This document shows, in pieces, positions 14,973-32,064 of a stretch of DNA of 64,000 nucleotides. How positions within the stretch are numbered: position 1 is the stretch's first letter; each line of letters opens with the position of its first letter. Below the pieces are notes generated by a model. The model worked only from the letters and a program-made list of their open reading frames with translations, made no database searches and had not been told where the DNA came from. The position numbers and the translations under genes were made by a program. Source of the DNA: Halobacillus sp. Marseille-P3879 (GTDB lineage: Bacteria > Bacillota > Bacilli > Bacillales > Halobacillaceae); the NCBI RefSeq assembly GCF_900240285.1, contig NZ_OESS01000001.1, positions 434,001 through 498,000 on the forward strand. The letters run 5' to 3'.

Positions 14973-16235
14973 TTAAAGCAGGTCTTTAATTTGGGAAGAT
15001 TTATAGCGGTTAGCTTCAATAAAAAACATTGAGCTTTTCTTATACATTCTGCGCTCATAATAAAGTTCTGCCAGAAACTCCAGATGATTCTTATAGTCAT
15101 TAAACTCGTTTAAAGTAAGGAGATCGGGAATAACGTGTTTCTCAAGCTCTTTGATAAATGAATCCTCTTGAGTGGTTTGGTTGATTTTATTCTTTAACAC
15201 AAAGAATTTATGCTTATACTTAGTATCGTTTCGATCATTCGCTTCCCGTTCGCCTCTTGATAAATACTCCCACGCTGCTTCATTGTCATCAAGCTGGAAA
15301 GACGTCTGTGCTAATAGAAATAACGTACTTACAGGGGATTGCTGTGCTTCCTCTTTAAGTTTTAAAGCGATTAACAGATAGTCAATGGCTGATGAGTACT
15401 TCTTCTGACTGGTGTAAATGTACCCTAGGTTATGGTAAATCCTGCCCTCATCAACTGAACTTAAATGTTCTTTTGAGCCTTTTAATAATTTCCGGAATAA
15501 TCGTTCGGCTACGTTATGAACCCCGAGGAAATTATAGTTAATCGCAAGCATCATGTAACAATCTGTTATTTTGGAGTAAGTAAGCGACTTCTGATATCCT
15601 TCTATAGCAAGGTTGGCGTAATAATTAGATTCCACATACATACGGAGGCGCGTATAGGCGAGAGAAAAATGATAGAATAGTTCATTATCATGATTCGGCA
15701 GCTTCTCCATCATTTCTTCGGCACAATGAAAATGCTTAACCGCTTCCTTGTACTCCGAATTTAAGAAATAATGTACCCCCAACGTTTTATAGTAGAGAAA
15801 ACGATATTCATTTGAAGATTGTGAAAGAACCACGCGGAGTTCTTTTGCGATCTTTTGGGAGAGGGGTTTGTTATGTTTAGTCAGCTTGTATCTGGAATGG
15901 ACGACTTTGTATAGGTTTGACAGCTCAATATTATGATTTTTTTGAAGCAGCTTATGACACTTTTTCTGCAACTTATCCATTAGTTTATAATCTTTTAATT
16001 GAACAGCTTCATGCCAATGGATGATTTCTTTATAAATGGTTTCATCAAACTCTTCATTTAAATTTTCCAGTCGAATGTTTAACCGCTCACCTATAAGCCG
16101 GTAAATTTCGTCGCTCGCATTCATGGTATTATGTTCAATTTTACTAAGGTAGGAAACGGAACAAATCCCTTCTGCCAGCTCTTCTAATGTCATATCTTTA
16201 AATTTTCGATGCTGCTTAATTAATTGACCCTTCAC
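14973..16235 (-). CDS. NprR/PlcR-like (RNPP-type) regulator, N-terminal HTH plus TPR repeats, no linked peptide
   Basis: 420 aa from a GTG with GAGGTG seven bases ahead. Residues about 5-60 are an XRE helix-turn-helix (KDMTLEELAEGICSVSYLSKIEHN); the rest is helical with TPR pairs such as YHNLGYIYTSQKKYSSAIDYLLIALKLKEE. This layout and length match NprR (about 423 aa), whose TPR domain binds a secreted, re-imported peptide. It is a clear paralogue of the 30444..31727 regulator (shared YLSKIE and RMYKKSS motifs). Unlike that gene, the 60 bp after its stop contain no start codon and run straight into a terminator, so no pheromone gene is linked. Confidence 0.8.
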   Translation of the reverse strand: MKGQLIKQHRKFKDMTLEELAEGICSVSYLSKIEHNTMNASDEIYRLIGERLNIRLENLNEEFDETIYKEIIHWHEAVQLKDYKLMDKLQKKCHKLLQKNHNIELSNLYKVVHSRYKLTKHNKPLSQKIAKELRVVLSQSSNEYRFLYYKTLGVHYFLNSEYKEAVKHFHCAEEMMEKLPNHDNELFYHFSLAYTRLRMYVESNYYANLAIEGYQKSLTYSKITDCYMMLAINYNFLGVHNVAERLFRKLLKGSKEHLSSVDEGRIYHNLGYIYTSQKKYSSAIDYLLIALKLKEEAQQSPVSTLFLLAQTSFQLDDNEAAWEYLSRGEREANDRNDTKYKHKFFVLKNKINQTTQEDSFIKELEKHVIPDLLTLNEFNDYKNHLEFLAELYYERRMYKKSSMFFIEANRYKSSQIKDLL

Positions 16236-30208: not shown

Positions 30209-30330
30209 GCAAAAAAAGATCCTTACCACAAGGGCAAGGATAAAGAAATTTATAGGTATAGGATTAGGGGAGGTGTTAATTAAAACACGCAATAAGTAAA
30301 ACTAAAAACTAATAAATACTAAACTAAAAC

Positions 30331-30447
30331 TTAAGCTTCGATAACTAAGGGCCTTGGATGTTGATCTTCAGTAGTATCATAAACAACTGGTGCTGCAGCT
30401 GAGGCTAGCAACGTAGCTAAAGCTACTACAGCAAGAACTTTCTTCAT
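30331..30447 (-). CDS. 38-aa exported propeptide, candidate signalling pheromone of the adjacent regulator
   Basis: Too short for most gene callers. ATG 30447 overlaps the regulator stop by four bases (ATGA) and AGGAGGG lies in the regulator's last codons, so expression is coupled. Residues 1-19 (MKKVLAVVALATLLASAAA) are a textbook Sec signal peptide with an A-x-A site; residues 20-38 (PVVYDTTEDQHPRPLVIEA) are a short polar tail. Size, position, strand and export signal match NprX and PapR, propeptides of NprR and PlcR. By analogy the active pheromone would be five to eight residues from the C-terminus (for example within HPRPLVIEA); this is inference. Confidence 0.85.
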   Translation of the reverse strand: MKKVLAVVALATLLASAAAPVVYDTTEDQHPRPLVIEA

Positions 30448-31727
30448 AAGAGTATCCCTCCTAGTTGAGAATGTTTATTTAACAATTGAATTGCTAACCT
30501 AAGGTAAGATGAAGCTTTTTTATACATTCTCTGCTTCTCAAGTAAATCAGCAAGAAACATAGAATAACGCGTAATGTATATATGATCCTTTCGTTCTTGA
30601 AAATATGGAATCACTTCTGTTTCCAAAAATTCACTCAAAAGGGGATCATTGTTTATAACTTTCTTATAAAATGAAAAATGATAAGCATAAGGTTTTGAAG
30701 GAAAGGTTTCCAATTTCTTTTCACCAAAGCTCACCCAGTTCATGCATCCTTTTATGTCACCTAGTTTATAGTGCTCCATTATTAAACTATGAATTGTATT
30801 TAGCAGTTCCATATAATCGAAAGAAGAGGTGGATTCTTTATTATAATCTAAGCTTTTCTTAAAGTTAGAAATAGCTGCTTGGTGATTTTCTAATCTAGCT
30901 TCTAAGGTACCGATATTAATATAAACTAACCTTAATTGCACAGTGTCGTCCGTTTGAATAGCTATCTTTCTAGCTAAGTGATAGTTTTCTAAAGACTTAG
31001 GATAATTTTTTAAACGACTATAATTAATTCCTTGCACTATATGGCAATCAGCACTTTTAGATAAATCATATTGAGATTTATACATTTCCAAAGCTTGATC
31101 AGCATAAAAAATAGAGGCGGATACGTGAAATGCCTGACTTGTACTTAAAGCCAATAGATAATAAAGATCACTTGCTTCCCAGCTTTCAATATCAATAGAA
31201 AGACTGTAATTTTTAGCGTCCATTAATTCTTGAAATGAATCATTAAAATTCCCTTTATAATATTTAACTAGACCAGCGATCAAGTGGTAGTAAAATTTCA
31301 TTTCATCATCAAGAGTATCTCTGTGTTGCTTTAAATTTTCCCAAGTTTTATAAGCCTCCGCTATCTCATTTTCTAGAAAAAGATAGCGAATGCGGAATAA
31401 CTCAAAGAAGATATACAATTGATGGTTTTCCAGCGTGTTTCTCTGCTTGATTAGCTCATTCCGTATTTTTTTAGCCTCATCTTTACGTTTAAATACTATA
31501 GCCTCGTACCAAACTTTTAACTTTTCTTTGGTAGGATGATCAATAGTAGATTCGTTAAAATCTATTCCAAGCCTCTCGTAAAGCATTTCGAGTACTTCAA
31601 TAGCTGGAACCGTCTGATCGTTTTCGATCTTCGAAAGATAGGCTGCCGAAATGATGCCGTCAGCAAGCTGGTTCTGGGTTAAACCTTGTTTAACCCGATG
31701 AAATCGAAGCGCTTTACCATATTCCAT
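30444..31727 (-). CDS. NprR/PlcR-like (RNPP) peptide-responsive regulator
   Basis: 427 aa from ATG 31727 (MEYGKALRF; AGGTGTG ahead), giving the same start layout and length as its paralogue at 14973..16235 and as NprR. Residues 5-60 are an XRE HTH (GLTQNQLADGIISAAYLSKIEND); residues about 75-425 are helical TPRs (YNRSLKNYPKSLENYHLA-like pairs; final RMYKKASSYLRLA). The frame is open back to 31856, but that region holds two palindromes and is more likely leader. The overlap with the exported peptide gene makes a signal-receptor pair: secreted, processed, re-imported by an Opp permease and bound by the TPRs (inference from RNPP systems). Confidence 0.85.
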   Translation of the reverse strand: MEYGKALRFHRVKQGLTQNQLADGIISAAYLSKIENDQTVPAIEVLEMLYERLGIDFNESTIDHPTKEKLKVWYEAIVFKRKDEAKKIRNELIKQRNTLENHQLYIFFELFRIRYLFLENEIAEAYKTWENLKQHRDTLDDEMKFYYHLIAGLVKYYKGNFNDSFQELMDAKNYSLSIDIESWEASDLYYLLALSTSQAFHVSASIFYADQALEMYKSQYDLSKSADCHIVQGINYSRLKNYPKSLENYHLARKIAIQTDDTVQLRLVYINIGTLEARLENHQAAISNFKKSLDYNKESTSSFDYMELLNTIHSLIMEHYKLGDIKGCMNWVSFGEKKLETFPSKPYAYHFSFYKKVINNDPLLSEFLETEVIPYFQERKDHIYITRYSMFLADLLEKQRMYKKASSYLRLAIQLLNKHSQLGGILL

Positions 31728-31740
31728 TTTCCACACACCT

Positions 31741-31783
31741 AGTTGATCAACTGTGGATTTGAAAGAATGCTGTCTTTCAAATC
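31741..31783. promoter_or_regulatory. Two adjacent palindromes upstream of the RNPP regulator
   Basis: AGTTGATCAACT (31741-31752) is a perfect 12-base palindrome. Three bases on, GATTTGAAAGA (31756-31766) and TCTTTCAAATC (31773-31783) are perfect 11-base arms around a six-base centre. They lie 14-56 bp before the regulator start and could be its own operator or an RNA hairpin in the leader. Confidence 0.55.
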
Positions 31784-32064
31784 TATTTTCAGAATACACG
31801 TTCGATGAAAATATTTCAACTATATTTGGAGGTTTCCCAAGTCGGTCTTTTTTCATAGCTTAAGAGGGGTTAAAAAGGACCAACTTTCACAGATTGCTTT
31901 TTCAATATTTATGTTTAATTTTTGGAAATTGATAAACAATATCTAAGTATTTACACTAATATCCAAATTTGTCGTTAAAGAGGTATGAGTAAACACCCTG
32001 TTAAAAGGGTATAAATGGTATAGGGAAGATTATGACTGTAATAAGTAAAAAAGGAGGAAGAAGA

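Follow-up and report, generated by a model that had tools for sequence, protein, structure and literature searches.

A receptor gene and an overlapping peptide gene

The window, the whole 64,000-nucleotide stretch analyzed here, carries on its minus strand a regulator gene that overlaps a 38-codon open reading frame (ORF) for an exported peptide by 4 bp, ATGA (Table 1). This overlap, the AGGAGGG ribosome site inside the regulator gene, and a 427-aa regulator with HTH and TPR parts had been proposed in the original prediction and were confirmed, the last by Pfam matches to HTH_3 (1.2e-9) and TPR_12 (8.2e-11). A RapH_N match was sub-threshold (20.6 bits versus a cut-off of 27), and the solved structures closest by sequence were those of NprR (6.9e-15) and RapH (1.6e-7). 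The length of 427 aa assumes the start codon that orthologs use; the open frame reaches further upstream, to an ATG at 31856, which would give 470 aa. As in RRNPP systems, a TPR receptor with an HTH adjoins a small propeptide with a Sec-type signal, here called by sequence pattern rather than by SignalP.

Table 1. Features of the predicted receptor-peptide transcript, in the order of transcription; positions are those of the window
Feature	Positions	Strand	Details
Half of predicted operator	31833..31844	(-)	CGACTTGGGAAA (complement TTTCCCAAGTCG)
Promoter-like -35	31814..31819	(-)	TTGAAA
Promoter-like -10	31791..31796	(-)	TATTCT, 17-bp spacer
5'UTR stem-loop	31756..31783	(-)	GATTTGAAAGA...TCTTTCAAATC, near presumed transcript 5' end
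Perfect palindrome	31741..31752	(-)	AGTTGATCAACT, beside regulator's ribosome site
NprR-like receptor/transcription regulator	30444..31727	(-)	427 aa; HTH, Rap-like helices, TPR
Ribosome site for peptide ORF, embedded in regulator gene	30456..30462	(-)	AGGAGGG
Exported propeptide, candidate pheromone precursor	30331..30447	(-)	38 aa, ATG start; tail PVVYDTTEDQHPRPLVIEA
3'UTR C-rich element	30256..30275	(-)	CACCTCCCCTAATCCTATAC; core CCCCTAATCCTATAC at 30270-30256
Intrinsic terminator	30211..30241	(-)	hairpin and T run, after C-rich element

With the ATGA granted, none of 6600 shuffled downstream stretches gave an ORF of 35 to 44 aa that passed the strict signal pattern. Among the window's 62 mechanical ORFs of at least 100 aa, one other had a signal-pattern ORF behind it. 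The genome set comprised 101 genomes, including the window's own, and 86 held a regulator homolog at an E value of ≤0.001. Close orthologs were found at 33 intact loci, own included (58 to 92% identity), and the named loci among them (58 to 77%) all belong to Halobacillus. The peptide ORF sits at exactly the -4 overlap in 33/33 loci, starting with ATG in 30 and GTG in 3, and every one of the 33 peptides passes the strict signal pattern. The original prediction had been staked on conservation of this ORF under purifying selection beside orthologous regulators, and it withstood that test: dN/dS (NG86) over the 33 loci is 0.27, dropping to 0.21 for the closer group and lying at 0.27 to 0.34 for the tail, as rough values with synonymous sites near saturation (pS about 0.65). 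At a 34th locus (L034, genome G042), the receptor gene is broken by stops and the peptide ORF is still open; this may be a signal-only strain or may reflect sequencing errors.

The surroundings of the pair are also kept. Of 14 named Halobacillus loci, 13 are flanked by an aconitase gene on one side, and 13 have an MBL-fold/rhodanese gene at the opposite side (Pfam). We considered a mobile-element origin and rejected it. Matches to 8 viral contigs covered N-terminal stretches only, the longest reaching residue 95, and although 43 plasmid records matched, the best of the 15 matches listed had 32% identity. Because the neighbors are kept and the viral and plasmid matches are partial or distant, we place the locus in the chromosomal core.

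Conserved elements of the transcript

The -35/-10 pair is exact at 31/33 loci and within one change at the other 2. Over the same 33 loci, the six basal pairs of the 5'UTR stem-loop are mostly kept (9 of 198 cells unpaired), with compensating changes at two pairs (TA to CG and GC to AT). The palindrome AGTTGATCAACT is exact in 31 loci and 1 base off in 2. As a regulon marker it was rejected: of 20 further copies retrieved, 18 fall within mechanical ORFs of various unrelated types, so the palindrome marks this gene only.

At the other end of the transcript, the 15-base core CCCCTAATCCTATAC is present in 33/33 loci, with a hairpin and its T run behind it. Among 44 genomes searched, the 17 that carry the system have it once each, and the 27 others lack it. 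The C-rich element is possibly a regulatory RNA or a protein-binding site. We rejected pairing between the 3'UTR and the ribosome site of the regulator itself; the complementarity is suggestive, but L018, L022, and L023 lost ACACC while the ribosome site stayed. A search of Rfam returned 4 matches, all far under the curated thresholds (best E value, 0.13). Tentatively, and we think doubtfully, the transcript could have two outputs, the receptor with its pheromone and a C-rich 3'UTR (core CCCCUAAUCCUAUAC plus terminator) that serves, whole or after processing, as a regulatory RNA pairing with ribosome sites of target mRNAs. Such a transcript would resemble the organization of staphylococcal RNAIII, here built on an RRNPP system.

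A predicted operator shared with protease promoters

A split palindrome of ~60 bp, TTGGGAAA-N~44-TTTCCCAA, was found in several genera at promoters of genes for NprR-like receptors and for secreted S8 and M4 proteases. Upstream of receptor genes, TTTCCCAA and its complement form an inverted pair at a spacing of 51 to 53 bp; at 15 of 66 named receptor loci outside Halobacillus, the exact pair stands no more than 200 bp upstream, and many others have a single half or none. When the 101 genomes were searched for TTGGGAAA-N40-48-TTTCCCAA, 47 places turned up, spread over 24 genomes, versus 6 for the reversed control; the box had been spotted by inspection, and this testing used partly the same data. 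We inspected 24 of the 47 places, one per genome: a receptor gene is no more than 400 bp away at 4 of them and an S8/M4 protease ORF (Pfam) at 14, and 6 have neither nearby. The exact box occurs in 24/86 genomes with a receptor match versus 0/15 without one (Fisher p 0.012, kinship ignored).

In the Halobacillus family the box is degenerate. At spacings of 42 to 46, 38 of 48 S8 protease promoters score at least 13/16, versus 3/480 shuffles and 0/48 for the reversed box; off-spacing windows on the same promoters gave 9, 4, 0, and 10, which blurs the spacing signal. The box start lies 132 to 144 or 161 to 172 bp ahead of the match start in most of the 48 promoters. No exact box was found in the window's genome, and among its 6 S8 genes the promoter box reaches 13/16 in only 2, the other 4 scoring 10 to 11. 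Just beyond the window's left edge lies a subtilisin-type protease gene (L250, G000:C9:432212-433327) with a promoter box of 13/16.

The receptor's own promoter has a single half box only. Its core ACTTGGGAAA is present in 33/33 regions upstream of the receptor, and the full 12-mer is present in 23. In the 4.17-Mb genome, TTTCCCAAGTCG occurs only twice (chance expectation, about 0.5; reversed control, 0), at the receptor promoter and 69 bp ahead of the start codon of the S8 protease gene at C8:278226. In sister genera, receptor and protease genes are adjacent: an NprR-like receptor gene is divergent from the ortholog of this protease gene in 5/5 g2 genomes and is its convergent neighbor in three g6 genomes, the fourth having neither at the thresholds used.

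We also looked at loci nearer to classical NprR. The receptors of L291 and L292 are the closest in our set to Bacillus thuringiensis NprR (37%); each is followed by a peptide gene with the tail EFHPPFRGEADF and then by an M4 protease gene, identified by Pfam on L291. No box scoring 13 was found at these two loci. Among the 397 genomes searched, none had a close B. cereus-group NprR locus at which nprA could be inspected (best identity, 37%).

Together, we interpret the cassette as a quorum-sensing pair of the NprR kind that probably switches on extracellular proteases through the predicted box. The propeptide would be exported by Sec and cut outside the cell, and a short piece around a conserved [HYWF]-P-x-P core would be re-imported and bind the TPR groove of the co-encoded receptor. 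Peptide-bound receptor would then act as a transcription factor at the ~60-bp operator, which precedes secreted subtilisin-type protease genes and is represented by a half site at the receptor's own promoter. The receptor is the presumed binder of the box, and protease activation would follow. A two-part box would suit a tetramer of the NprR-NprX type, which is thought to bind two DNA sites simultaneously (PMC4970707, in part). Known NprR activates the protease gene nprA, and nprR-nprX is reported not to be autoregulated (PMC4147580, in part), whereas a half site is predicted here at the receptor's own promoter.

The box might instead belong to another regulator, with the pair still a quorum-sensing cassette; we regard this as a possible, if unlikely, alternative. 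One candidate is a second NprR-like TPR protein encoded in the window (15018-16229, minus strand), a paralog that lies 15 to 18 kb from the first receptor in several related genomes; a general protease regulator is another. In the paralog's 406-aa ORF, Pfam found TPRs and no other domain, and our filter found no convincing exported peptide downstream of it; it may be an orphan or eavesdropping receptor. That the paralog could be the binder, that the receptor promoter has only half a box, that 4 of the 6 S8 genes of this genome score 10 to 11, and that L291 and L292 have receptors near NprR but no box scoring 13 all count against the reading that we favor. However, the same box occurs at promoters of NprR-like receptors in several genera, and the 12-mer is common to the receptor and protease promoters and found nowhere else in the genome. 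Promoters of the paralog, in 11 upstream stretches from 10 genomes, reach at best 9 to 11/16 and have no exact half site. The paralog scan and the 2/6 result for the genome's own S8 genes pull in opposite directions on the protease-box reading.

Receptor fold, functional residues, and peptide tails

An AlphaFold model of the receptor (pLDDT, 88.7; pTM, 0.78; 57-row alignment) had its best Foldseek matches in apo NprR (5dbk_B; TM by query/target length, 0.71/0.85) and, at similar TM, in Rap proteins. We mapped the functional residues of NprR by alignment at about 20% identity, at which single positions may be off. N275, which we take to be the groove Asn of functional importance in NprR, corresponds to N271 here and is present in 33/33 orthologs and 24/24 distant rows. 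The NprX-binding and clamp residues are altered, with R126 replaced by N in 28/33, W167 by F or Y in 33/33, and H201 by Q in 33/33; Y165 is mostly G (25/33), and R343 aligns to a gap.

Residues tested in B. thuringiensis NprR include, in the portion of PMC4970707 available, the Spo0F contacts D107, Y118, E188, and Y223 and the tetramer residue F225. In the orthologs, D107 is N in 32/33, Y118 is R in 29/33, and E188 is E in just 7/33, while Y223, which serves both Spo0F contact and the tetramer, is kept as Y220 in all 33. F225 is L in 33/33, and the dimer residues N407 and Y410 are S/T and L, respectively, in 33/33, making the oligomer state less certain; the F225 change also counts against the NprR-type activator that we favor. 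From the alignment, the changed clamp and Spo0F-contact residues suggest a receptor that binds a different ligand and has no Spo0F function. It is accordingly unlikely that this is a canonical bifunctional NprR, which without peptide holds Spo0F and blocks sporulation and with peptide becomes a tetrameric activator: the NprR/Rap fold and the kept Y223 would suit such a protein, but three of the four tested Spo0F contacts (D107, Y118, and E188; PMC4970707, in part) are not generally kept, and F225 is changed throughout. In a quick tree, NprR has a long branch and lies apart from the Halobacillus clade.

The peptides differ from NprX as well. All 33 orthologous tails contain [HYWF]-P, which extends to [HYWF]-P-x-P in 32 and to [HYWF]-P-x-P-L in 28; only 17, the window's own peptide not among them, have the longer D-[ST]-A-x3-[HYWF]-P-x-P-L. 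The tail had been judged not to be of the SKPDIVG type, which agrees with the [HYWF]-P-x-P core. The original prediction noted that in RNPP systems the pheromone is cut from the C terminus; here, the conserved core sits a few residues inward and the last residues vary, so the mature pheromone could be one of several pieces of the tail. A distinct signal-receptor pair, as originally predicted, fits both the altered clamp residues and the differing tail. Since the tested residues and the peptide differ, we keep the cassette apart from NprR-NprX proper; it would work like NprR, with predicted binding and activation, but is not that system.

Beyond the ortholog group, our filter gave a candidate exported peptide in 48 of the 66 named non-Halobacillus receptor loci and none in 18. 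The motif [DE]-x(0,1)-[HYFWLE]-P, chosen after the data were seen, matches 45 of 54 hand-picked tails outside the ortholog group (1000 shuffles: mean, 13; maximum, 22). Receptors of the NprR-like kind with such tails occur in other Bacillaceae too, and the proposed restriction to halophiles was not borne out. In the g2 genomes, the -4 peptide ends in DEDHPEY in the 3 tested (L282 and L283 left out). Two Metabacillus propeptides (L085 and L088) have three identical SEPDHPKIV units.

The small ORF could alternatively encode a membrane or structural mini-protein, or serve as a coupling ORF for translation or stability of the regulator. We find this improbable. The ORF's strict coupling to the receptor gene speaks for such a role, and its secretion and processing are predictions; yet the hydrophilic tail is conserved along with the signal, and the tail unit is tandemly repeated in the precursors of L035, L044, L085, and L089, as reported for NprR-type precursors in the accessible text of PMC9765709.

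"NprR/PlcR-like," the class first proposed, stands in its NprR part, extended to Rap, and falls in its PlcR part: the model matches PlcR (3u3w_A) at a TM of 0.36/0.52, well under NprR and Rap, and by predicted fold the receptor is NprR/Rap-like, not PlcR-like. The cassette shares with PlcR-PapR the plan of a quorum-sensing transcription activator of secreted enzymes, an HTH and TPR regulator adjoining a small exported peptide, and differs in its peptide and operator, the predicted box being unlike the PlcR box quoted in the part of PMC4147580 available; a PlcR-PapR type system is thus highly improbable. With Rap-Phr it shares the fold of the TPR part and a Sec-exported propeptide downstream, and differs in that the receptor has a DNA-binding domain.

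Place among known systems

We conclude that this NprR-like quorum-sensing cassette is real and conserved and that it has a peptide tail of its own and a predicted operator for proteases. Quorum sensing of the NprR type has been worked out chiefly in the Bacillus cereus group. The cassette resembles NprR-NprX (RRNPP/RRNPPA) of that group in its receptor of HTH, Rap-like, and TPR parts, in its propeptide downstream in the operon, and in a link to extracellular protease genes, which here comes from the box and gene adjacency. It differs in the changed R126/H201/W167 clamp and three of the four Spo0F contacts, in a [HYWF]-P-x-P tail core in place of SKPDIVG, and in the 4-bp gene overlap.

In surveys with RRNPP_detector and related work (PMC9765709, PMC10075063, and PMC11343458, each in part), NprR is recorded from 21 genera, along with 21 candidate subfamilies described as novel; NprR-like pairs were thus already known outside Bacillus. 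Close relatives of this cassette may already be in the tables of PMC9765709 or PMC10075063; "Halobacillus" was not found in the accessible main text of either, nor was an operator for this branch. In a Halobacillus genome paper of 2025, nprR appears in the list of quorum-sensing genes, with neither a peptide nor an operator given for it in the portion available (PMC12167742). For this branch, no published box was found in the accessible text of PMC3325205, PMC7756075, or PMC4147580, most subscription journals lying outside the search, and searching the literature by motif letters returned only unrelated work among the matches listed. In 2014, according to the available part of one review, the DNA sequence bound by NprR-NprX was still to be determined (PMC4147580).

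What is new here is the split-palindrome box at the promoters of receptors and secreted proteases. For one NprR-like branch, it provides a concrete predicted bipartite operator and protease targets, together with a matching peptide tail. The branch belongs to salt-loving environmental bacteria, in which operator and targets are directly testable, and the conserved 3'UTR element may give a peptide quorum-sensing operon an RNA output as well.
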